From NCBI RefSeq assembly GCF_000196895.1, contig NC_014297.1, positions 992,001 through 1,056,000 on the forward strand: a stretch of DNA of 64,000 nt. The letters are read 5' to 3'. The translations under genes and the position numbers were made by a program. Below the pieces are notes generated by a model. The model was not told the origin of the DNA. It made no database searches and was given only the letters and a program-made list of their open reading frames with translations. This document shows, piece by piece, positions 2,857-57,645 of this stretch. Position 1 is the stretch's first letter. Each line of letters opens with the position of its first letter. Source of the stretch: Halalkalicoccus jeotgali B3 (GTDB lineage Archaea; Halobacteriota; Halobacteria; Halobacteriales; Halalkalicoccaceae).

Positions 2857-3206
2857 ACGACCCACCATTCGGCATCCGGGTGTTGTTGTGCCCACGCGAG
2901 CAGGATTGAAAGGGCGTGCCCGGCGTTTCCTGCCGTCGCCTCCCAGTAGTCATCGCTCTGTTCAGTTCCTAGTACATCCACGGCCTCGCGGAGACGCGCT
3001 TCGGTATCTCCAGCACGCTTGTCGTTGAGCCACCGAAGCCCCTCTTCTTCGTCGAGTGCTTCCTCGAAGAACTCGGAATAGTTGAATGTCACACTCATTT
3101 TGGCCTTAGTGACTCCACTGAGCGCGTATGATCCTCCCTCGGTGTGCCGGGGGGCCCCAACAGCTTCCTCGCCGTCTCTGAGTTCAACACTATATCCCAT
3201 TTCCAT
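2853..3206 (-). CDS. Conserved halovirus-type hypothetical protein
   Basis: 117 residues. The sequence contains SVELRDGEEA, RHTEGGSYAL, VTFNYSEFFEEALDEEEGLRWL, AGDTEARLREAV and a C-terminal TAGNAGHALSILLAWAQQHP block; from memory this pattern (an NYS-FF motif, then AGDT and GNAG...LLAWA..HP) recurs as a small protein of haloarchaeal proviruses, function unknown. The ATG at 3204-3206 is preferred to an internal ATG at 3098 because residues before 3098 belong to the recurring pattern. It overlaps the upstream regulator by 17 bases and the downstream zinc protein by 4, so the three are one transcript. Confidence 0.75.
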   Translation of the reverse strand: MEMGYSVELRDGEEAVGAPRHTEGGSYALSGVTKAKMSVTFNYSEFFEEALDEEEGLRWLNDKRAGDTEARLREAVDVLGTEQSDDYWEATAGNAGHALSILLAWAQQHPDAEWWVV

Positions 3207-3429
3207 CTCCGACTCTTGGATCGTCTACGAGTTCGTACAGTCCAGTCGGCTCGTGGACGTACTGTACACAATCTCCCGACAGGAGTGACCGTAACTGATT
3301 CTGGACAGTGTTTCTGGACAGGCCAGTCTGCTCTTGGAGGTAACCTGGCGTTGCTCGACCCTCCTGGAGCACATCAAGAATGGCTTCTGTGGAGGGTGTG
3401 ATCTTGATCGCCATCGTTGCGTTGGGCAT
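3190..3429 (-). CDS. Winged-helix regulator, paralogue of the 61.7-kb regulator
   Basis: 79 residues from the ATG at 3427-3429 (an ATG at 3414 is an alternative). Motifs: LDVLQEGRATPGYLQEQTGLSRNTV (helix-turn-helix, read in two parts GRATPGYLQEQTG and LSRNTVQNQL), a wing with VQYVHEPTGLYEL, and DDPR at the end. The same sequence skeleton, GYL..-TG.SR....L..L....VH..T..YEL..DPR, is found in the rightward regulator at 61733, so they are paralogues within one element. It is divergently placed from the rightward small-gene cassette and next to a structured leader, suggesting it controls one or both units. Confidence 0.8.
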   Translation of the reverse strand: MPNATMAIKITPSTEAILDVLQEGRATPGYLQEQTGLSRNTVQNQLRSLLSGDCVQYVHEPTGLYELVDDPRVGDGNGI

Positions 3430-3546
3430 AATTGTCCTCACATGTTGTTTGTTCCGGTTGTACATATTTCTTTGGTCTATCTGACCACACACTCTTACAT
3501 TACAGGTAGTAGCATTTATGATGCTGGCCCCTATACTATAGCATAA
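3430..3546. promoter_or_regulatory. Divergent promoter region of the 3.4-kb regulator and small-gene cassette
   Basis: AT-rich stretch between two divergent genes. For the rightward cassette, TATA-like sequences are catttatgat (about 3511-3520) and ctatactata (about 3531-3540); the first would place transcription start near 3540, just before a structured leader. Leftward, tacatatttc (about 3461-3470) lies some 35 bases before the regulator start. An interrupted repeat AGCAT-TTATG-ATGCT lies at about 3508-3522. Positions are by eye. Confidence 0.5.
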
Positions 3547-3600
3547 GCGCGGGATGCCCGGCAGAAGTCCGGGCCGGTGCTTGTGACACCGACCCCGTGC
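3547..3600 (+). ncRNA. Putative three-way-junction structured leader RNA
   Basis: 54 bases that can fold into a compact three-way junction. Outer stem of 7 pairs: GCGCGGG (3547-3553) with CCCGTGC (3594-3600), including one G-U. Inside it sit two adjacent hairpins: GCCCGG-cagaagt-CCGGGC (3556-3574) and CGGTG-cttgtga-CACCG (3575-3591), both with 7-base loops and no bases between them; two-base linkers join them to the outer stem. It ends 19 bases before the ATG of the first cassette gene (7 bases before the GTG alternative). The 7-bp closing stem and 5-bp/7-base 3' arm recall a reduced tRNA, but the TpsiC consensus is absent. Could be a regulatory leader, a stable small RNA, or a DNA cruciform operator. 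Confidence 0.5.
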
Positions 3601-3619
3601 TGGAGATGTGACCCAGCAA

Positions 3620-4114
3620 ATGAGTCAGACTCAATCAGCGACCATGAATCGAACGGTCCGAACGGACACCACGTCGGTGCGCTACGGCTTCCGGAGCGAT
3701 CCCGAGCCACTCCCCGAATCGTGGGCTGACTTCGGTGGTCGTGCCCCATGCGGGACTGAGCCGGCGTACGAGGACTCGGAGGCGCAGCTGTACTACGCGG
3801 TCGAAGTGGCGGTACAGGACCGCCAGATTATCGACTACTCCGAGGGGATCGGAGAGAACGCCAACGTCCGAGAGGAGATGGCCGTGATCGTACGCTACAC
3901 TCGCGGAGATGGTGAGGACGCGATCTTCCGCGAGTTCGCGGGTGTCGAGCGAGACGGGGCGGTCGTCCCGCGGATCGTCGCCGAGAGCGGGCCCGGGTCG
4001 TGGCCGGCAGTGCTCTCGCTGACGTCCGCAGCAGCGGATAGGTTCACCGACGCACCGGCACTCGGTGAGCGTGATACGGCCGCGATCACGCGCCTGTATG
4101 GTGATTCGCTATGA
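3620..4114 (+). CDS. Hypothetical protein, first gene of small-gene cassette
   Basis: 164 residues from ATG 3620; a GTG at 3608 would add four. Not recognised. The protein has an all-beta/alpha look with SVRYGFRSDPEPLP at the start, AQLYYAVEVAVQDRQIIDYS in the middle and a Gly/Pro-rich hinge, no transmembrane segment. It is the promoter-proximal gene of five tightly coupled rightward genes (3620-5051), the only rightward block in the left 48 kb apart from the recombinase, so it is probably expressed at a different stage from the structural genes. Function unknown. Confidence 0.65.
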   Translation: MSQTQSATMNRTVRTDTTSVRYGFRSDPEPLPESWADFGGRAPCGTEPAYEDSEAQLYYAVEVAVQDRQIIDYSEGIGENANVREEMAVIVRYTRGDGEDAIFREFAGVERDGAVVPRIVAESGPGSWPAVLSLTSAAADRFTDAPALGERDTAAITRLYGDSL

Positions 4115-4239
4115 GTCGCTGGAGCCGAGACACGGAGAGCGTCCGCCTCGAAATGGCAGAAATTCGCGGCGAACACGGCGACGACGCGGACCTTATCGAG
4201 CACCTTGCCCGGCGCTGGGGCATGGAGGGGTCGGCATAA
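4111..4239 (+). CDS. 42-residue hypothetical protein
   Basis: Tiny ORF starting ATG at 4111 within ATGA overlap of the preceding stop and ending TAA at 4237-4239, itself overlapping the next ATG (TAATG). Product reads MSRWSRDTESVRLEMAEIRG then EHGDDADLIEHLARRWGMEG; predicted helical and charged. The double overlap is the main evidence that it is real. No function assigned. Confidence 0.6.
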   Translation: MSRWSRDTESVRLEMAEIRGEHGDDADLIEHLARRWGMEGSA

Positions 4240-4448
4240 TGCCCTTCAACGGCCCCATGCGTGAGTTGCACGGCGACGAGAATCACCGCGAGGAGTCGGT
4301 TTACTGTACGCAGTGTGGGTCGATATTCGTCAGGAACCAGATCGCCCGCTCATGCCCAGCATGCACGCTCGCCGAGCGCCAAGAGAAGATCATCGAACAG
4401 ATCGACCGGCTTGACCGAGATCTCGATACCATCGACGGAGGGGTCTAA
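4239..4448 (+). CDS. Small zinc-ribbon protein with coiled-coil tail
   Basis: 69 residues, starting at an ATG that overlaps the previous stop by one base. A zinc ribbon is evident: VYCTQCGSIFV and ARSCPACTLAE (two CxxC knuckles 15 residues apart), followed by a charged helix (RQEKIIEQIDRLDRDLDTI) likely to form a coiled coil. Typical of small nucleic-acid or protein-binding adaptors in haloarchaeal viruses and plasmids. No specific partner known. Confidence 0.72.
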   Translation: MPFNGPMRELHGDENHREESVYCTQCGSIFVRNQIARSCPACTLAERQEKIIEQIDRLDRDLDTIDGGV

Positions 4449-4449
4449 G

Positions 4450-4734
4450 ATGAGTTCCAATACGGCGGTCGGCCCCGACCGATCCGACCTCGGAACTCTC
4501 GCCGACAAGCTCGCCGAGCGCGAGGACGTACTGGGCGTGCGGATCCACAACGAGCCCGAGCGCAACTGGCGCGACGCGTGGCTCGAGATGGCGATCGAGA
4601 CCGAGAAGGAAGTGATTCCGTCGGCCGTCCACCGGCTGATCGCCGAGGCGGGCTGTGGAATCACGGAAGCCCACCCGCCCCAACTCGGTCAGACGCATCG
4701 CGCCGTCGAGATCAAGGAGGACCCCAGCGCATGA
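4450..4734 (+). CDS. Hypothetical protein of the early cassette
   Basis: 94 residues from ATG 4450, one base after the stop of the zinc-ribbon gene. Sequence includes LGTLADKLAEREDVLGVRI, WRDAWLEMAIETEK and IPSAVHRLIAEAGCGITE. The alternation of helices and a strand (VLGVRIHNEP) suggests a small alpha/beta domain. Start chosen by spacing; the open frame upstream is in another gene. Stop overlaps the next start (ATGA). Not recognised. Confidence 0.65.
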   Translation: MSSNTAVGPDRSDLGTLADKLAEREDVLGVRIHNEPERNWRDAWLEMAIETEKEVIPSAVHRLIAEAGCGITEAHPPQLGQTHRAVEIKEDPSA

Positions 4735-5051
4735 GCATCCAGCAACCCACTGACCCGTACGCAGTCGAAGCAGCGTTCCTCGGCCACGCAGGGACGGTCG
4801 AACCGCCGGGCGAACCCGGTGAGGTGGACACGTCCTGCGACGAGACGGACGACTTCGACGGGTGCTCGATGGAACTCCGGATCGGCGATGTCTACACCGG
4901 TGACTCGCTGGGCGTGTTGACGCCGTCGGAGGTCGCCGTCGAGGCCCACCAAGATCCCGATGGCTGGCTCGTCCTCGCCGAATCCAACGACGATTGTGAC
5001 TGCCGGTGGATCCAGATGGCGAGTGCCGACACCGTCGAGATCGAACAGTAG
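4731..5051 (+). CDS. Hypothetical acidic protein, last of the early cassette
   Basis: 106 residues, coupled to the previous gene by ATGA. Contains SCDETDDFDGCSMELRIGD and WLVLAESNDDCDCRWIQMA; four to five cysteines among acidic residues could bind metal. The C-terminal part looks like a small beta barrel. It ends the coupled cassette; the next gene starts 130 bases later. Function unknown. Confidence 0.65.
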   Translation: MSIQQPTDPYAVEAAFLGHAGTVEPPGEPGEVDTSCDETDDFDGCSMELRIGDVYTGDSLGVLTPSEVAVEAHQDPDGWLVLAESNDDCDCRWIQMASADTVEIEQ

Positions 5052-34295: not shown

Positions 34296-34895
34296 CTACT
34301 CAGCGAGATAGTCGCCGATCGCGTTTTTCACGCCGTCGCGGTCATCCCCGCCGGCCTCAGTTTCCCGAAGGGTTTCGAGCTGCTCGTCGGTGAGGTCAGC
34401 TACTTCGAGATCGGATTTGATCTCCGGAATCGTTTGGTCGAGAAACTCTTCGGGTGAGTCGAAACTCTTCTCTGAACCGGAATCCTCGGGGTTGGTTCCA
34501 TCGTCGGCATCGGTGCTAGTCTCGGTGTCGGTAGTCCCGGACTCACTTTCCGGATCTTCGTCTCCGTCGGTGGGGAGGAGGTTGTCGGCGAACGCCCGAG
34601 CGATCCCCGCTTCGAAGTGCTCGATGTCGCCGGGTTGGGCGTCGCCAATCGGAGTTCGGTGGACACGATACTCCCCCGCCTCGACGGGACCGGGCTGATC
34701 GGCAAGAGTCGACGGACCGCCATTGCCACCAACGACCTGCGAGCGGAACTCGTCATCGGGCAGGTCTTCGTCCGCAGGGTGCAGATTATCCTCGAACGCA
34801 CTTGCCACGTCCGGCGAGAGTTCGATTGTTTCGCCAGGTTGGGTACCGGCGATGGGCTCGTTCAGGACCTGATATTCCTGCGTATCATCTGCCAT
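34296..34895 (-). CDS. Capsid-associated protein with internal duplication
   Basis: 199 residues. Two related repeats: EYQVLNEPIAGTQPGETIEL...AFEDNLHPADED (residues about 7-45) and EYRVHRTPIGDAQPGDIEHF...AFADNLLPTDGDED (about 73-113). A disordered Ser/Thr/Asp linker follows, then a helical domain PEEFLDQTIPEIKSDLEVAD with LTDEQLETLRETE resembling the HeH/Rho-N-like fold. It lies immediately after the capsid gene; perhaps a capsid-linked cement or head completion protein. Confidence 0.62.
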   Translation of the reverse strand: MADDTQEYQVLNEPIAGTQPGETIELSPDVASAFEDNLHPADEDLPDDEFRSQVVGGNGGPSTLADQPGPVEAGEYRVHRTPIGDAQPGDIEHFEAGIARAFADNLLPTDGDEDPESESGTTDTETSTDADDGTNPEDSGSEKSFDSPEEFLDQTIPEIKSDLEVADLTDEQLETLRETEAGGDDRDGVKNAIGDYLAE

Positions 34896-50752: not shown

Positions 50753-53599
50753 TTACTCGAGCCGGGATTCTAGATCGGCGAACTTATCCCCGATAGACCC
50801 ACCCGAGCCGGAGGCTGTTGTCTCATCGTCCGGTGCATCCTCAGCAGCACTATCCGCGGTGTCGTCTCCATCCTCAACCAGGGACGTAGGCGTGTACCGC
50901 AGAGGTTCCTCACTCGCCGACAGGAGATCCTCAGTATCCGCCAGATCGCCAAGGTCGTCGAAGGGGACGGCCTCGCCGTGATGGATGAGCGAAAGGTCCG
51001 CTGCCCGTGTCGTCCCTTCAGGAACGATTACGACGGCCCAGTGTTCCCGTGAGAGAGATGGCTCGGGCACGAGTTCGGTCGGTGCCCCAACCGCGACGTA
51101 CTCCTCGCGTTCGGGATCGCCTTCTTCAAAGTCGGATTCGCGAGCGGGATACTTCCCAATGGCACCCGATGAGTCGATGTCTTCGCGTGTTTTGAACGAC
51201 GCTATCGACGTCCCGTCAGTGTCCTCGAGCACCCAGTGATATCCGTCGTCCGGGTCGGGATCGTACCACCACACCGCGTTTCCGCCCTTGACGCGGAGCA
51301 TGGGCTCGCCGTCGACTGTGACTGTTCCGAGATTGTACGAGCGCCGACGCCCGTTCTCGTCGACCTCGCGGCAGTACATCGGATCGGTGAGCGTATCGTA
51401 GACCTTCCATGCTTTCTCGGGACGGGCGGCGTAGAGACATCGTTCGCCGTCCTCGATGGCGTCGTGGAGGTGGCGAAGGGTCTGTCCGGGGCTGGACTCG
51501 CCGGTCGAGTCTTCGAGCTCCACGCGGACGTTCTTGCCTCCTGAGAGGGCAGCGAGTTCGGGGTTCTCCTCCATGAACCGTTCGCGGGCCTGGCGTGAAT
51601 CTTCCGGGGTGACGATGTCCCACGAAACGGCATCCTTGAAGGCCCGCTCGATCGACGCGAACCCGTCGCTGGATCGGCCGATGGTCTGTTGCTCGATCTC
51701 GGTGTCGAAGCCTGCGTCAGTGAGGGCGTCGTAGAGTTCCTTGATCGCTTTGCGGTGGTCGCCCTTGCCGTCAACGGGCGAACCGCTGATCTTCTTGAAG
51801 AGAGTGATGCCACGGGACGTCGTCTTGAGTTTGACCTCACCGTCGCGCTTCTCTCGCTCAACGAGGTCGTCGCCGACCATGTCGAGGACACCCCACACCT
51901 GGGACTCGTGGCCGAGGTCTTCGCGATCGACGCCCAGATTATCGATGAGGCGGTGTTGGATTAGATCGGCAGAGACAAAGCCGTCATCATCACCGTGCTC
52001 GATCGCGACGTCATGGACTGTCTTACAGGTCTGGCGTTCGACACGGTCAAGGTCGATGTCAGCGACGGCCATCGACTTTCGGTTCCCGCTATCGTCGAGG
52101 ATCGCACCGGCCCCGTCGAGCTGCCCGTCGCCGCGATTGAGGAGTAGCTCGTCCATGAGTTGCTGGTCGGACTTTGGCTCATGTCCGTCTCGGCGGACGA
52201 TCCGCTCGATATGGTGGTCGGCTTCGGTTTGAGTGATCGTTGGCGGGAATGGCGGGAGTGCGTAGACACGGTATGGGTCCGGCGGCCCGACCGAAGTCTT
52301 CATCCAGACATGATATTCCTCTTCGTCGCGGAGTGTTTCCCACTTGAGTCCAAGATTTTTCCCGACGACCTTGCAGGCGTCGGCTGAGCCGACGGAGAAG
52401 GACATCTTCGTATCGCACTGGCTGAAGAGTGCTCCGACGATCTCAGGCGGGAGTTGATCGGGATACTGGCAACAGAGGAATAAACAGAGCCGCGAGGTCC
52501 GCGCCTTCGAGAGCATCGTCGGGAGTGAGGACCCCTCATGAGCCAGCAGATCAGCTTCGTCCATAAGGAGATGGAAGTTATCCGGGCCGCTCCCTCGCGA
52601 GCTCTTATCACCATCCCGGTCGCGTGCGGCGGCCCACGTCCGGCGGAGGATGGCCGTCCCAACCATCTCTTTGATACCCTCGTCCTCTTTGTTCATCCGC
52701 ACGATGAGGATCTTGCCCTCGTCAATCACCTCTTGAAGGTTGATCGTATTGCCCCGGTGGGCGAACACGCGCCTCGCGATGGGGTTCTCAACCCAGTTTT
52801 TGAAGCGCCTGCGGATCGCGTCCAGGTCGTCATCATCGTACTCGGCGAGCTTATCGGCGAACAGCGCGAGGAAGATGTGGCCCGATGCGTTGACCATGTC
52901 CCTGTAGCGCTCGCGGTTCTCCTGATCCGCGAGGATGAAGTACAGGTCGATCATCGTGAACTCGGCGTCGTGGCGAGCGGCGAATCGGATGATGTTCTCC
53001 GCGATCGCGTCCATCAGCGGCCCCCAGTAATTACTCGCGCCGAGCATCTGCACCAGGTCGTTAAGGATATTCTCGACGATTAGTTCAAATTCGGGGTGGT
53101 CCGGGGAAACGCCAGGGTCGAGGAAGTTGAACCCGGTCTGGGCAGACCGAGTGCCGGCGGGCTCAAGCCATACGACGTCGCCTTTCCGGTGGTCGGGGAG
53201 GATGGAGTAGAACCGTTTTGCACCGTCGCCTTTGGGTTCGATATAAATCATGCCGTCGCCGGACTCGGCGATCGTCCGGCCGGCATTCATCATGAGGTTC
53301 GACTTCCCATAGCCCGTGCTCCCGAAGAGGACAGTGTGCTGGCGAAGGTCCGTCTGGTCGATTGAGGCGTGGCCACCGCGACGCGTTCCGACGCCGACTG
53401 CGATGGGGCTCTCGGCGTCAGCTCGCGGCGACCGCATCATCTGACGGGCGAGATACCCGGCAAAGACCTGCTCGTTGCTGTGTTCGTCGGTTCCATGTGA
53501 CCGGAGCGTCTCATTCCCTTCGACGGCCTCGGTCGACTCCTCTTCCCAGATGTAGAGGCCGTCATCAGGGCTCAAGGGTTGTGTTGGGGCAGCCGCCAC
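50753..53599 (-). CDS. VirD4/TraG-type coupling ATPase
   Basis: 948 residues. RecA-like motor: Walker A LFGSTGYGKSNLMMNAGRT (93-100), then MIYIEPKGDGAKRFYSILPD, and Walker B NFHLLMDEADLLAHEGSSLP with SKARTSRLCLFLCCQYPDQL (the sensor typical of VirD4/HerA-like ATPases). A C-terminal region of about 500 residues carries a winged-helix-like part and further alpha/beta domains unique to archaeal versions. Couples DNA substrate to the secretion channel, or acts as a packaging-like ATPase. Its start overlaps the stop of the 365-residue partner by one base. Confidence 0.85.
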   Translation of the reverse strand: MAAAPTQPLSPDDGLYIWEEESTEAVEGNETLRSHGTDEHSNEQVFAGYLARQMMRSPRADAESPIAVGVGTRRGGHASIDQTDLRQHTVLFGSTGYGKSNLMMNAGRTIAESGDGMIYIEPKGDGAKRFYSILPDHRKGDVVWLEPAGTRSAQTGFNFLDPGVSPDHPEFELIVENILNDLVQMLGASNYWGPLMDAIAENIIRFAARHDAEFTMIDLYFILADQENRERYRDMVNASGHIFLALFADKLAEYDDDDLDAIRRRFKNWVENPIARRVFAHRGNTINLQEVIDEGKILIVRMNKEDEGIKEMVGTAILRRTWAAARDRDGDKSSRGSGPDNFHLLMDEADLLAHEGSSLPTMLSKARTSRLCLFLCCQYPDQLPPEIVGALFSQCDTKMSFSVGSADACKVVGKNLGLKWETLRDEEEYHVWMKTSVGPPDPYRVYALPPFPPTITQTEADHHIERIVRRDGHEPKSDQQLMDELLLNRGDGQLDGAGAILDDSGNRKSMAVADIDLDRVERQTCKTVHDVAIEHGDDDGFVSADLIQHRLIDNLGVDREDLGHESQVWGVLDMVGDDLVEREKRDGEVKLKTTSRGITLFKKISGSPVDGKGDHRKAIKELYDALTDAGFDTEIEQQTIGRSSDGFASIERAFKDAVSWDIVTPEDSRQARERFMEENPELAALSGGKNVRVELEDSTGESSPGQTLRHLHDAIEDGERCLYAARPEKAWKVYDTLTDPMYCREVDENGRRRSYNLGTVTVDGEPMLRVKGGNAVWWYDPDPDDGYHWVLEDTDGTSIASFKTREDIDSSGAIGKYPARESDFEEGDPEREEYVAVGAPTELVPEPSLSREHWAVVIVPEGTTRAADLSLIHHGEAVPFDDLGDLADTEDLLSASEEPLRYTPTSLVEDGDDTADSAAEDAPDDETTASGSGGSIGDKFADLESRLE

Positions 53600-54696
53600 T
53601 AGTCCGCCACCTCTGGTTCAGAATCGCCGAGGTCGAGATTGGAATGGAACGTGTGGCTTTCCCGCGGGACGCCAGGGCCCGACTCGCGAGTCGCCCACTT
53701 CACGTCGGGGACCTCAATTGACCCGTTCGGAAGGTGGAAGAGCCCTTCCCATTCTTGGATCGTGAATGCGTTCGACGTTCCGTGGAGGAAGCGGCCGACG
53801 GGCGAGCGTTTCCGAACGCGCCGCCGGACGAGATCTTCAGCCTCGTTTATATTGCCAGTGTGCTTGAAGTATGTCGGTCGAAGTTTCTGCTTGTTGGCGT
53901 AGTCGTATTTTGAGAAGGACTTAGCGGCCTTTTCAAGAGCGGTTTGGACATCCGATTTATCAGGGCCGATCGCCATGAGACGGATACTGGTTCGAAACGT
54001 CTCATCGGAGACCTGCTTTTGCATATCTTTCGCGAGGTCTTCGTTGAGGTCAGACTTCACGACCTTTGTCGTCTCTTGGCGCAAGCCGATTGAAAGCGTG
54101 CCCTGTCGGGTCGAATCGGCGATTCGATCACCGTCGCCGCCGATCCGTCCGCGCTTGTACCACTTGCTCGAGATGGGTTTGCCACAGCCCTGAACAATCA
54201 GTCGGACATCATTCTCGTTGACGAACTTCGGGAGTGTCGACGAATACGGGTCGCCATCCAATGGATCACCGGTCGAGTCGCGGAAAGATATCGGGTGGAT
54301 GGCGTCGAGTTGTGGTTCGACGCGGCAGGTAAACACCCACTCGCCGACCTTGGCATCGGGGAGTGGGTCTTGGTACGTCTCCATCCGGCTGTTGGCGTAC
54401 TTAGAGTTGATCAACGACTGGATGTCGCTAAGGTCCTCGTCGGCAGCAGTGATCTGGGCAGTCAATTGATCTCGGAACCACCATTCGAAACTGAAGGTCC
54501 CGCCTTTTCGACCAGTGCCGACAGTGTTATAGATATCTTCAAGGAAGTCTGCGCCGCCGCTCATACCAGCAGTATCGACATAGGGCCGCACCTCTAAGCG
54601 GTTCGGATGTTCGATTTCGTGATAGAGCCGATCGATGCGATCCTCGAGAAGTTTCGTCGGTTTACCACCCCAAGAGACCCAGGAAAGGATGCTCAT
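53599..54696 (-). CDS. Coupling-protein partner (N-terminal domain, split VirD4-like)
   Basis: 365 residues. Features KLLEDRIDRLYHEIEHPNRL, RKGGTFSFEWWFRDQLTAQI, SDIQSLINSKYANSRMETYQ and DAKVGEWVFTCRVEPQLDAI. From memory this resembles the separate N-terminal domain of archaeal VirD4-like proteins. Mainly alpha/beta, no transmembrane helix. It is translated just before the coupling ATPase (one-base overlap), suggesting they form one complex. Exact family name uncertain. Confidence 0.65.
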   Translation of the reverse strand: MSILSWVSWGGKPTKLLEDRIDRLYHEIEHPNRLEVRPYVDTAGMSGGADFLEDIYNTVGTGRKGGTFSFEWWFRDQLTAQITAADEDLSDIQSLINSKYANSRMETYQDPLPDAKVGEWVFTCRVEPQLDAIHPISFRDSTGDPLDGDPYSSTLPKFVNENDVRLIVQGCGKPISSKWYKRGRIGGDGDRIADSTRQGTLSIGLRQETTKVVKSDLNEDLAKDMQKQVSDETFRTSIRLMAIGPDKSDVQTALEKAAKSFSKYDYANKQKLRPTYFKHTGNINEAEDLVRRRVRKRSPVGRFLHGTSNAFTIQEWEGLFHLPNGSIEVPDVKWATRESGPGVPRESHTFHSNLDLGDSEPEVAD

Positions 54697-55700
54697 TCGT
54701 CGCCACCCCTGCTGTGCTGGAGTAGTTCCCAGTTAGGCCCGAGGTCGTACCACTTGCGTGCGAAGAGGTAGGCCGGGATGGAGATGATTGGTAGAAGTGC
54801 ACCCACTGTAACGCCCACTACGAGCGATGCGATACCTGTAGCGACGCTCATTCGAAGGACGAACAGTTCGCGGTCGTAGCGGGGGACCCAGTCGACTCGG
54901 GAGCAGCACCGATCAGCACGAACGGCAGTCTCGAGGTTTGTAAACCCAATAATGCCGCTTGCGATGTACATCGAGAGCCCCAGCGCAAACTGCCCGCTGG
55001 TCGATGCGAGTGGCACCGTCAGAGCCCCACCAACGAGCCCTGCGCTGGCGATCGCGAGAACGGACCACGGGCCATCCGAGAAATTAAATTCCTGAACAGT
55101 CGTCCCACGATGATCATTTTTCTCGCGTTCGTGGAGGTGAAGCCAGTAGCTCCCCACGAGTAAGATCGTGCCTGCGAGGACAATAGCGGAGATATTAGCA
55201 GTGTCGAGGTAGTTCAGGGTCGGAACAAGTCCAGATGTGAATGCAGTCATGATCGTGGTGAGGGCAGTAGCAGCGAAGAGGAGGACGATACCAGCGGCAG
55301 CTCGTCGAGCGAATAGTGTCTTAACAGGTCCACGGCTGACCCAGTGAATCACCTCATCAAGACGGGTGTTGATCTGTTGGTCACGGCGATTCTGTCGAAC
55401 GCGCATCTCCCACTCTTCGGTCCCGTGACAGTCGAGGCAGACGAGGGCATGGCTCTCGTCAGAGAAATCAACCTCATCGAGGTCGACGATGATCCAATCG
55501 CCGAGAGAAGTACCGTCGACAACCGTCCCGCAGCACTCGCAAGTCGAGCTGGCATTCCCGATCGTTCGGAGGATGACGCTTAGGTCATAGTCGTGTGGCG
55601 GCGTCGCTGTGGGGCTATCCCCGTCCGTCTCACCAGCACCATCCGAACTATTTTGAGTTGTCACGTTGGAATTTGTTCCAGTAGACATATTATTAAGCAT
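54693..55700 (-). CDS. Multi-pass membrane protein of the secretion operon with zinc knuckle
   Basis: 335 residues from ATG 55698-55700 (55688 also possible), overlapping VirB4 end by 8. N-terminal TCECCGTVVDGTSLGDWIIV and HALVCLDCHGTEEWEMRV make a CxxC...CxxC zinc site; then five hydrophobic helices (AGIVLLFAATALTTI, ISAIVLAGTILLVGS, VLAIASAGLVGGALT, ALGLSMYIASGIIGF, TGIASLVVGVTVGAL). Conserved position between VirB4 and coupling proteins suggests a channel component, but no recognised family. Confidence 0.65.
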   Translation of the reverse strand: MLNNMSTGTNSNVTTQNSSDGAGETDGDSPTATPPHDYDLSVILRTIGNASSTCECCGTVVDGTSLGDWIIVDLDEVDFSDESHALVCLDCHGTEEWEMRVRQNRRDQQINTRLDEVIHWVSRGPVKTLFARRAAAGIVLLFAATALTTIMTAFTSGLVPTLNYLDTANISAIVLAGTILLVGSYWLHLHEREKNDHRGTTVQEFNFSDGPWSVLAIASAGLVGGALTVPLASTSGQFALGLSMYIASGIIGFTNLETAVRADRCCSRVDWVPRYDRELFVLRMSVATGIASLVVGVTVGALLPIISIPAYLFARKWYDLGPNWELLQHSRGGDE

Positions 55701-57645
55701 TATCACCACCTCCATTGTCAGACGGATCCTTGCCGAGTTTGAGCAGTTCCTCCGCTAACGGTTTGATCTTTACCGGGTACGTCCCGTGGTCGTCGATATC
55801 AGCTAAACAGTGTGAATATCCCCGCTTTGGCGTCCCTTTGTTCATCTTCCGGGCGAAGGCGCACTCGTTCTCAGTGAGGCCCAGCTTCTCGCCATACTCG
55901 TCGAAGTGGATGCCCGGTTCTTTGTGAATAAACTTGTGTGACGTAAGGTTCGCAAGCGTCTCGGCCTTCGGATGGATAAAGAAGTCCTGAGCCTGCTGGG
56001 TGATCATATGCAACGAGATGTCGAAGTGTCGGGAGTGGCGGACAATCTTTTCGAGCCACTCGAGACTGTTTGGCGTCTCAAACAGCCGGTGGATCTCGTC
56101 GATGGCAATGACCATGCGTTTGTCCGACGCCTTAGCGCGCTGGTAGATCACGTTGAATGGAGCCTGGAGTCGGAGGGCCTTCTCCCGATCTGAACCGCCC
56201 TGTTGCACGTCGATTAGCGTGGACTTGCCTGAGAGGTCAATGTTCGAGCGGCGCCCCAGATTGGCAAAGTTTCCACCCTCGAACGAGTCCATCGCCATGT
56301 GAAGGTCCGCAGCAGCGTCTTCCCATTTCTCGGAATCGCGAACGTTCGATGCGCGATCGTCACTCGAGAAGTTGTACTCGCCATCTGGCGTTCGGGCGAA
56401 GAATCCCTCGGCATCGTCGGCGATCATGCCAAGCGTCTCGCGGAGATCGAGCGGTGCTGGACTCGGATTTGAGTGGGTCTTCGGATCTTCGTTGATCTCC
56501 ATCCGGTAGGCGGTCTTGCGGATCCCTTTCTGCAGAACCGTCCACTCGTCTCGTGTGAGACCGCCGTCAGAGCCGCCGGCCTGCGAGAAGAACGTCTCAA
56601 ACCACCCCAGCGTCGTCGATGCCCAATGGTTGAACGGGTTGAGTCCCTCTTCCTCAACAACGTGAATGGGCGTTGGCTGGATCTCCATCGGGTTGACAGC
56701 GTTCTCACCACCGAGAGGGAGGCGCTTTGCTCCAGTTTCATGGGCGAGTTTGTCGAGGCCGTTGACCGGGTCAATCATCACGAGGATGGTGTCGGGATCC
56801 ATCGCAAGCCGTCGAAGCAACATCATCATCGTCCCAAAAGACTTGCCTGACCCGAGGTCGCCGATAGTGAGTGCGTTGTAGCCCCCCTCACGATTCCAGC
56901 GGTCGAAGGCGAACGGCTCGTCAGTAACCGCGTGGTACCCGATCAAGACACCATCGGGCTCGTAAAGCGTACTCGCAGAAAACGGGAACATCGCACCAAC
57001 GGCATCCCCAAGCATCTTTCCCGACGCACCACCGAGCATGTCCTTCGCGATCGGGGACGTGCTTGTTAGTGCGTCGTCGCTCTGGTAGTCGATCGTTCGG
57101 ATCGATATATCGTTCTTGTTGAGCTCGTCAGTGATCGAGCGTGCCTCGTTAGTGACGACATCTCTCGACTTGCCTCGAATGCGAATGTAAACGCCGACAT
57201 CCCAGAGTTTCTGTGACCCCGTCTTGAGTTCATCGCGGATGAACTGGTGCTCTGCGATCTGCTGTTTTGTGAGGCCGATATCCGGATCCTCTTGTTTCTG
57301 CTGCTGGCGGAGTTTGACTTTGAGCTTCTGAATCGACCGGTCGATCTTCTGGACCATCTGCTGACTGTCAGCCGGATTGAAGTGAATGACGGGTTCGACA
57401 GCCGTGTTGGGGTGCGTATTGATCAGGTCAATGATTCCCGGTTCGATCTTCGAGGGCATCGACGTGATACAGAGGTGCTTGATCCAGTCTTCGCCAGACC
57501 GGCACCCGCCTAGTTCGTAGGCGACCGACGACGGGCCGACAGCACGCGCTTGGTGTTCTCGGGCCTCATCGACGGACCCAGTGTCCGCACTCGTGTCGAA
57601 CTTGTCCGATACTTTTTCCTTCAGGTGTGCGATTTTTCCACTCAT
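55693..57645 (-). CDS. virB4: VirB4-type conjugation ATPase
   Basis: 650 residues. N-terminal VirB4 part with FNPADSQQMVQKIDRSIQKL and DVGVYIRIRGKSRDVVTNEA; central linker PFSASTLYEPDGVLIGYHAV; motor with Walker A ALTIGDLGSGKSFGTMMMLL (262-269), the segment MDPDTILVMIDPVNGLDKLA, and Walker B MVIAIDEIHRLFETPNSLEW followed by SRHFDISLHMITQQAQDFFI. This is the signature ATPase of type IV secretion systems. It is preceded by a gene encoding a PrgI/VirB4-N-like protein with 1-base gap. Confident as the energy source; whether it drives DNA transfer or pilus/other export is unknown. Confidence 0.93.
   Translation of the reverse strand: MSGKIAHLKEKVSDKFDTSADTGSVDEAREHQARAVGPSSVAYELGGCRSGEDWIKHLCITSMPSKIEPGIIDLINTHPNTAVEPVIHFNPADSQQMVQKIDRSIQKLKVKLRQQQKQEDPDIGLTKQQIAEHQFIRDELKTGSQKLWDVGVYIRIRGKSRDVVTNEARSITDELNKNDISIRTIDYQSDDALTSTSPIAKDMLGGASGKMLGDAVGAMFPFSASTLYEPDGVLIGYHAVTDEPFAFDRWNREGGYNALTIGDLGSGKSFGTMMMLLRRLAMDPDTILVMIDPVNGLDKLAHETGAKRLPLGGENAVNPMEIQPTPIHVVEEEGLNPFNHWASTTLGWFETFFSQAGGSDGGLTRDEWTVLQKGIRKTAYRMEINEDPKTHSNPSPAPLDLRETLGMIADDAEGFFARTPDGEYNFSSDDRASNVRDSEKWEDAAADLHMAMDSFEGGNFANLGRRSNIDLSGKSTLIDVQQGGSDREKALRLQAPFNVIYQRAKASDKRMVIAIDEIHRLFETPNSLEWLEKIVRHSRHFDISLHMITQQAQDFFIHPKAETLANLTSHKFIHKEPGIHFDEYGEKLGLTENECAFARKMNKGTPKRGYSHCLADIDDHGTYPVKIKPLAEELLKLGKDPSDNGGGDNA

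Follow-up and report, generated by a model that had tools for sequence, protein, structure and literature searches.

Many haloarchaeal mRNAs lack a leader, and to our knowledge structured regulatory leaders are hardly known in these organisms. Does a folded RNA at the head of a provirus gene cassette control translation of the first gene? We addressed this question at a locus of Halalkalicoccus jeotgali B3, within the stretch of NC_014297.1 from 992,001 to 1,056,000 of the forward strand (64,000 nt, hereafter the window).

A three-way junction upstream of a provirus cassette

The original prediction described a fold at 3547-3600, with three stems of 7, 6, and 5 bp, 7-nt loops, and 19 nt to an ATG, and direct reading of the sequence confirmed it (Table 1). 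The three-way junction is the minimum-energy fold of this segment, at -30.8 kcal/mol compared with -21.3 ± 3.0 for shuffled sequences (z of -3.2; 0 of 200 shuffles equally stable). For the whole leader, including the additional hairpin P4 described below, z is -2.6. A single fold with a z of -3 is weak evidence alone in a GC-rich genome, and we regard the fold as solid because of the comparative sequence evidence.

The window carries a tailed provirus, with PHROGs matches for baseplate, tail sheath or head protein, portal, and large terminase, as well as an integrase. Genes for TrwB/TraG-like ATPases at 50753-57645 suggest a conjugative or mobilisable module beside the provirus genes. The divergent ORF upstream of the junction also gave TrmB and HVO_A0261_N Pfam matches below their cut-offs, and in relatives homologous divergent genes precede the leaders. 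No tRNA or tmRNA was found in the 64-kb window with ARAGORN. A start-stop (ATG followed by TGA) occupies positions 3606-3611, inside the P4 loop and ahead of the real ATG.

Table 1. Elements of the leader locus, in window coordinates
Feature	Position	Strand	Details and basis
Divergent winged-helix repressor-type ORF	3190..3492	-	Start codon uncertain; Pfam HTH_24 above cut-off
Palindrome AGCAT-TTATG-ATGCT	3511..3525	.	Overlaps TATA-like box; probable operator; different palindromes here at other loci
TATA-like TTTATG	3515..3520	+	31 nt upstream of P1; agrees with family peak at -33 to -29
Three-way-junction core	3546..3601	+	R1 68.6 bits, R2 66.1 bits
P1 5′ strand	3546..3553	+	7 bp (3547-3553/3594-3600, one G-U), 8 bp with A3546-U3601; minimum-energy fold, covariation
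P2 hairpin	3556..3574	+	6 bp (3556-3561/3569-3574), 7-nt loop CAGAAGU; minimum-energy fold, covariation
P3 hairpin	3575..3591	+	5 bp (3575-3579/3587-3591), 7-nt loop CUUGUGA; minimum-energy fold, covariation
P1 3′ strand	3594..3601	+	Last 4 nt common to P4; covariation, energies, permutation test
P4 hairpin UGCUGG/CCAGCA	3598..3618 (3598-3603 with 3613-3618)	+	Alternative to P1; ends 1 nt before ATG
First cassette ORF, 164 aa	3620..4114	+	Next ATG, 19 nt beyond 3600; no Pfam match; ORF list, Pfam search
Coupled small ORFs downstream	4111..5051	+	Starts and stops overlap

The junction belongs to a widespread RNA family

A DNA search of ten family genomes, the window's own among them, revealed that this genome contains another copy (contig C3), with stems that are changed and still paired. 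A pattern made from these two copies retrieved a third from an IMG/VR contig, where it adjoins a divergent helix-turn-helix gene and precedes an ATG. The covariance model built from the three copies (R1) matched 133 of 391 genomes of the class (E ≤ 0.1). A refined model built from 80 core sequences (R2) had matches in 141 of these 391 haloarchaeal genomes (E ≤ 0.01), and 52 of 86 genera were represented; the E-values are rough and apply per single genome, and about 4 chance genomes are expected among 391 at 0.01. In a sample of 392 genomes of the phylum, of unstated composition by order, 30 matched, all in the window's order.

No Rfam 15 model (4227 searched) matched the window at gathering score, and none matched positions 3400-3750 up to E 10; an Rfam search of locus L008 likewise gave no family over the element. 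Readings of the fold as a K-turn, hammerhead, or purine riboswitch were dropped because of this lack of an Rfam match. Among the other searches, plain DNA similarity to phages and plasmids found nothing, a loose P3 pattern retrieved mostly unrelated bacterial stretches from viral contigs, and a pattern scan of genome contigs gave no haloarchaeal title among the 80 matches listed. The junction is real and is a member of a large RNA family without a match in any RNA library searched. The original prediction, confined to one locus, was right about the element itself and did not see its wide spread. The window copy combines the three features that define the family, i.e., an R2 match, P4 at the AUG, and a divergent regulator gene.

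Four R2 matches lie in the window's own genome. The other three leaders (L250, L373, and L384) all precede one family of Cys-containing proteins of 68-70 aa, from which the window's own first gene differs. Two tandem P3-like matches were seen within 85 bases of a viral contig (L390, 1241-1323).

Compensatory changes in the junction

Covariation in relatives, the check proposed with the original prediction, proved abundant in a structure-fitted alignment of 80 copies (A7; 78 distinct rows), which were taken from 77 of the 90 loci L250-L339 plus the window, L091, and L341. Standard pairs fill 93.2% of its 1437 pairing cells, double (compensatory) changes occur in 19 of 20 base pairs, and the covariation score of 0.347 exceeds those of shuffles (0.140 ± 0.007) and of slid partners (0.097 or less). 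Its pairing cells hold 78 G-U and 33 A-C combinations, an excess that points to pairing in RNA and not in DNA, in an alignment that favors G-U because it was fitted with RNA rules and that leans toward the modeled structure. A conserved folded domain with covariation, as in riboswitches, is thus found in A7. Among unpaired positions, conservation is seen at U in position 2 of the P3 loop (76 of the 78 rows with a letter), at ACC after P3, and in the A-rich P2 loop.

With a MAFFT alignment (A6), RNAalifold detected P3 only, because the P1 and P4 columns are misaligned there; A7 was used instead. The conservation of P3 is inflated because the seed sequences share this stem, and P3 stems that changed yet still pair occur in HJTV-4, ChaoS9, BJ1, L296, L336, and L364. 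Two R1 matches inside coding sequence (L313 and L329), judged to be chance after their flanks were read, were excluded from A6, A7, and the set of 99 loci analyzed below; they remain in the counts of P4 at ATGs and in the first counts after removal of near-duplicates, which were dropped at a similarity cut of 0.93.

The element lies between TATA-like boxes and start codons

A TATA-like box begins 28-42 nt ahead of the core in 65 of 99 loci, compared with 7 of 99 in an equal stretch further up, and many loci have palindromes there, whose sequences differ between loci. The gene directly upstream is divergent in 79 of the 99 loci, coding for a winged-helix protein in 52 and a second repressor-like protein in 27. 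An ATG-initiated ORF starts 6-25 nt after P1 in 96 loci, preceded by the letters AGC in 42 and GCA in 25 (together 67 of 96), and in most copies P4 ends 0-1 nt before the AUG. Shine-Dalgarno-like letters lie between P1 and AUG in 47 of the 96, compared with 15.8 ± 3.7 in shuffled sequences. A run of five T is found in no leader of the 99-locus set, and the leaders therefore contain no obvious terminator.

The original prediction had placed the fold in the 5′ leader of a rightward early cassette, a reading that a transcription start downstream of the fold would contradict. The tailed provirus genes and the TATA-like boxes support it: the 65 boxes, together with a transcript start of the virus phiH1 at the P1 base (see below), put the start upstream of the fold in the family, and we infer the same for the window's transcript.

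The 96 first ORFs fall into 45 unrelated clusters, so the leader travels as a module independent of the downstream gene. Their lack of relatedness also means that the first genes give no pointer to a ligand, and a common metabolic theme of downstream genes, usual for riboswitches and not strictly defining, was not found among them.

P4 competes with P1 at the start codon

The three stems of the original prediction stand; a fourth hairpin, P4, and with it an alternative at the start codon, lay outside its coordinates and were missed. Most copies offer the 3′ end of P1 a second partner, the stretch immediately preceding the ATG, as in CCGUGCUUC...GAAGCAUG, GUGCUGG...CCAGCAAUG, and GGGUU...AACCCAUG; the P4 stems of L317 and L357 take in the AUG as well. 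Among 40 loci not used for R2, P4 (score ≥ 12) was found at the ATG in 33, compared with 86 of 400 other ATGs, and 7 had no clear P4; these loci were picked among R2 matches, a few were already in the R1 list, and their exclusion concerns only the building of the model. The remaining loci gave 77 of 92, compared with 177 of 915 other ATGs.

We permuted pairing partners among leaders, keeping one leader per distinct tail sequence (n = 51), a choice that does not remove all relatedness. P4 scored 14.61 when required to use 3 or more nt from the 3′ strand of P1, compared with 9.33 ± 0.58 for swapped partners, and P1 scored 20.15, compared with 14.14 ± 0.46 (0 of 500 permutations in each case); a control pairing gave no signal (8.27 compared with 8.44). 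As both scores, obtained via common nucleotides, beat all 500 permutations, P1 and P4 both appear to be kept by selection through the nucleotides that they share. The idea that the pre-AUG strand is a mere copy of the P1 5′ strand was tested and found weak (longest identical run of 4.04 compared with 3.80 ± 0.11, a value reached by 11 of 500 permutations).

Three of the 99 loci have no first ORF and 2 of the remaining 96 have no P4 of at least 4 bp; in the 94 leaders left, P1 and P4 compete for at least 3 nt in 91. The energy of the P4-form minus that of the P1-form has a median of +0.9 kcal/mol (quartiles of -1.4 and +2.2), and the P1-form is more stable in 54 of the 94, as computed with parameters for 37°C and 1 M salt rather than 3-4 M KCl. 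In the window, the P4-form is better by 1.7 kcal/mol. One form is far more stable in some leaders, for example, the P1-form in L277 and L254 and the P4-form in L378 and L345.

The leader in haloarchaeal viruses

Judging from sequence and gene context, the element heads the early transcripts that tailed viruses or proviruses and related elements produce, also in the isolates phiH1, phiCh1, ChaoS9, BJ1, and HJTV-4. A scan of 63 genomes with leaders, using two protein families only, located portal or terminase matches within about 22-40 kb of the leader in G000, G061, G126, G163, G247, G259, G298, G310, and G378; other matches were far from the leader or on other contigs, and in most of the 63 genomes the two families detected none.

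HJTV-4 (R2 E of 3.2e-5) and ChaoS9 (7.2e-5) have the junction, P4, and the AUG, and phiCh1 carries a divergent copy (4.2e-4). Two leaders were not reported by R2. The syntenic leader of phiH1 likewise folds into the junction, its P1 being 16 bp long (z of -7.7), and the annotated start of T4, a lytic transcript, is position 34556, where P1 begins; the AUG lies about 90 nt beyond P1, and P4 does not touch it. The BJ1 leader was found by synteny with the repressor; all four stems, P1 to P4, can be drawn there, and P4 is part of the minimum-energy fold.

The annotated starts of ChaoS9_315 (L386, 2498) and BJ1 ORF7 (L385, 1048), which lie upstream of or inside the leader and in frame with the ATG after P4, are probably mis-set. 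In phiH1 (L340), the T5 start is annotated at 34722, 8 nt before the AUG at 34730, with no TATA-like box at the expected distance, and this end may instead result from processing of T4.

A candidate translational switch

The family, the stems P1, P2, P3, and P4, the nucleotides shared between P1 and P4, the AUG position, and the near-equal energies of the two forms were established by computation. The two helices compete, are balanced and conserved, and one of them ends on the AUG, all of which fits a translational switch. Our best reading, in which we have moderate confidence, is a two-state leader that would expose or hide the start codon of the first early gene. The leader, about 80 nt long on early lytic transcripts, would adopt two mutually exclusive folds. 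In the P1-form, P1 would close the P1-P2-P3 junction and leave the start codon unpaired; in the P4-form, the P1 3′ strand would pair with the bases just before the AUG, and in some copies with the AUG, covering the start region. Whatever stabilizes the junction, whether a protein of virus or host, a small molecule, or the kinetics of folding and salt, would maintain translation of the first early gene, and without such stabilization P4 would repress. We infer that the leader switches in cells, that the AUG is free when the junction is formed, and that translation responds.

The element is present in about a third of the sampled haloarchaeal genomes and at the lytic transcript start of the classic model virus phiH, making it possible to test how translation starts on leadered haloarchaeal mRNAs without Shine-Dalgarno pairing and whether RNA switches act in the lysis decision of archaeal viruses. 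Like translational riboswitches with a start-hiding expression platform, the leader family has a covarying domain followed by an exclusive hairpin at the start codon; unlike them, it has unrelated downstream genes, archaeal-virus carriers, no Rfam match, and no known ligand. According to PMC8241225, a synthetic leader that buries the AUG regulates translation in Haloferax volcanii: in theophylline riboswitch E, folding of the upstream domain opens a hairpin that contains the start codon. That riboswitch is engineered, and we claim no relation to the leader family. The same paper states that, among natural riboswitches of archaea, only the one for fluoride in Thermococcus kodakarensis had been demonstrated experimentally at that date.

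More tentatively, and on balance improbably, the leader may be a virus-borne riboswitch-like RNA: the early lytic transcript (T4 in phiH1) would sense a host metabolite, ion condition, or regulator, and P1/P4 exchange would decide translation of the first gene. If so, the leader would add an RNA checkpoint to the repressor-based lysis-lysogeny switch. In the phiH rep/T4 switch, the mapped T4 transcript itself begins with a divergent version of the element, and the portion of PMC4284463 consulted concerns promoter and repressor, not a folded leader. In the open-access literature searched on structured leaders in haloarchaea and their viruses, the element is undescribed and no structured regulatory leader of archaeal viruses is reported; the accessible portions of the phiH1, ChaoS9, BJ1, and 104-motif papers contain no description of it.

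The main rival of the switch is a processing leader, in which an RNase acting on duplex ends would cut the base of P4 beside the AUG and release a small junction RNA and a leaderless mRNA, a common form in haloarchaea. Although the end of P4 at the AUG and the phiH1 T5 start agree with such cleavage, we consider it unlikely, since it leaves the reuse of the P1 strand by P4 and the P1/P4 balance unexplained and no 5′ end is mapped at the AUG in any close relative. A precedent is the processing of phiH1 T1 with T(ant), in which an RNase acting on the ends of RNA duplexes likewise controls an early lytic transcript of a halovirus posttranscriptionally (PMC8707807 and PMC4284463); unlike the leader family, it requires antisense RNA. 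Neither R1 nor R2 matched the T1 leader.

A constitutive architecture, in which the junction would protect the RNA or recruit the ribosome in an IRES-like manner and P4 would be a positioning hairpin that does not switch, seems to us quite improbable. The phiH1 transcript start at the P1 base, the strict spacing to the AUG, and the frequent Shine-Dalgarno-like letters are in line with this proposal, but Shine-Dalgarno pairing is reported to be irrelevant at H. volcanii leaders (PMC3986360). The competition of P1 and P4 for the same nucleotides in nearly all leaders also argues against it.

In phage HK022, early transcripts start with the put RNA, which folds and mediates antitermination in cis. 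A similar role for the leader, whose folded 5′ end would modify RNA polymerase for long early transcription, accords with its position at the cassette start and its independence of the first gene; it is very improbable, as the coupling of P4 to the AUG, absent from put RNA, would be unneeded. We give almost no credence to a DNA-level element (an operator, cruciform, or replication site), which would agree with the adjoining operator-like palindromes but not with the one-sided placement downstream of TATA and before the AUG, nor with the G-U excess, itself favored by the RNA rules of the alignment.

Some first ORFs contain a further hairpin, P5, at codons 5-16, often with a 9-nt loop, which is strong in a subset and weak overall (13.1 compared with 11.1 after codon shuffling; higher in 66 of 96 first ORFs). 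In a subset that includes L258, L260, L288, L317, L358, and L364, among others, the first coding sequence has, about 15 nt from its start, a hairpin whose loop is 9 nt (or 7 nt) long, for example, CUUGAAUCU, CAAAAGUCU, or CUUCAGGAU.
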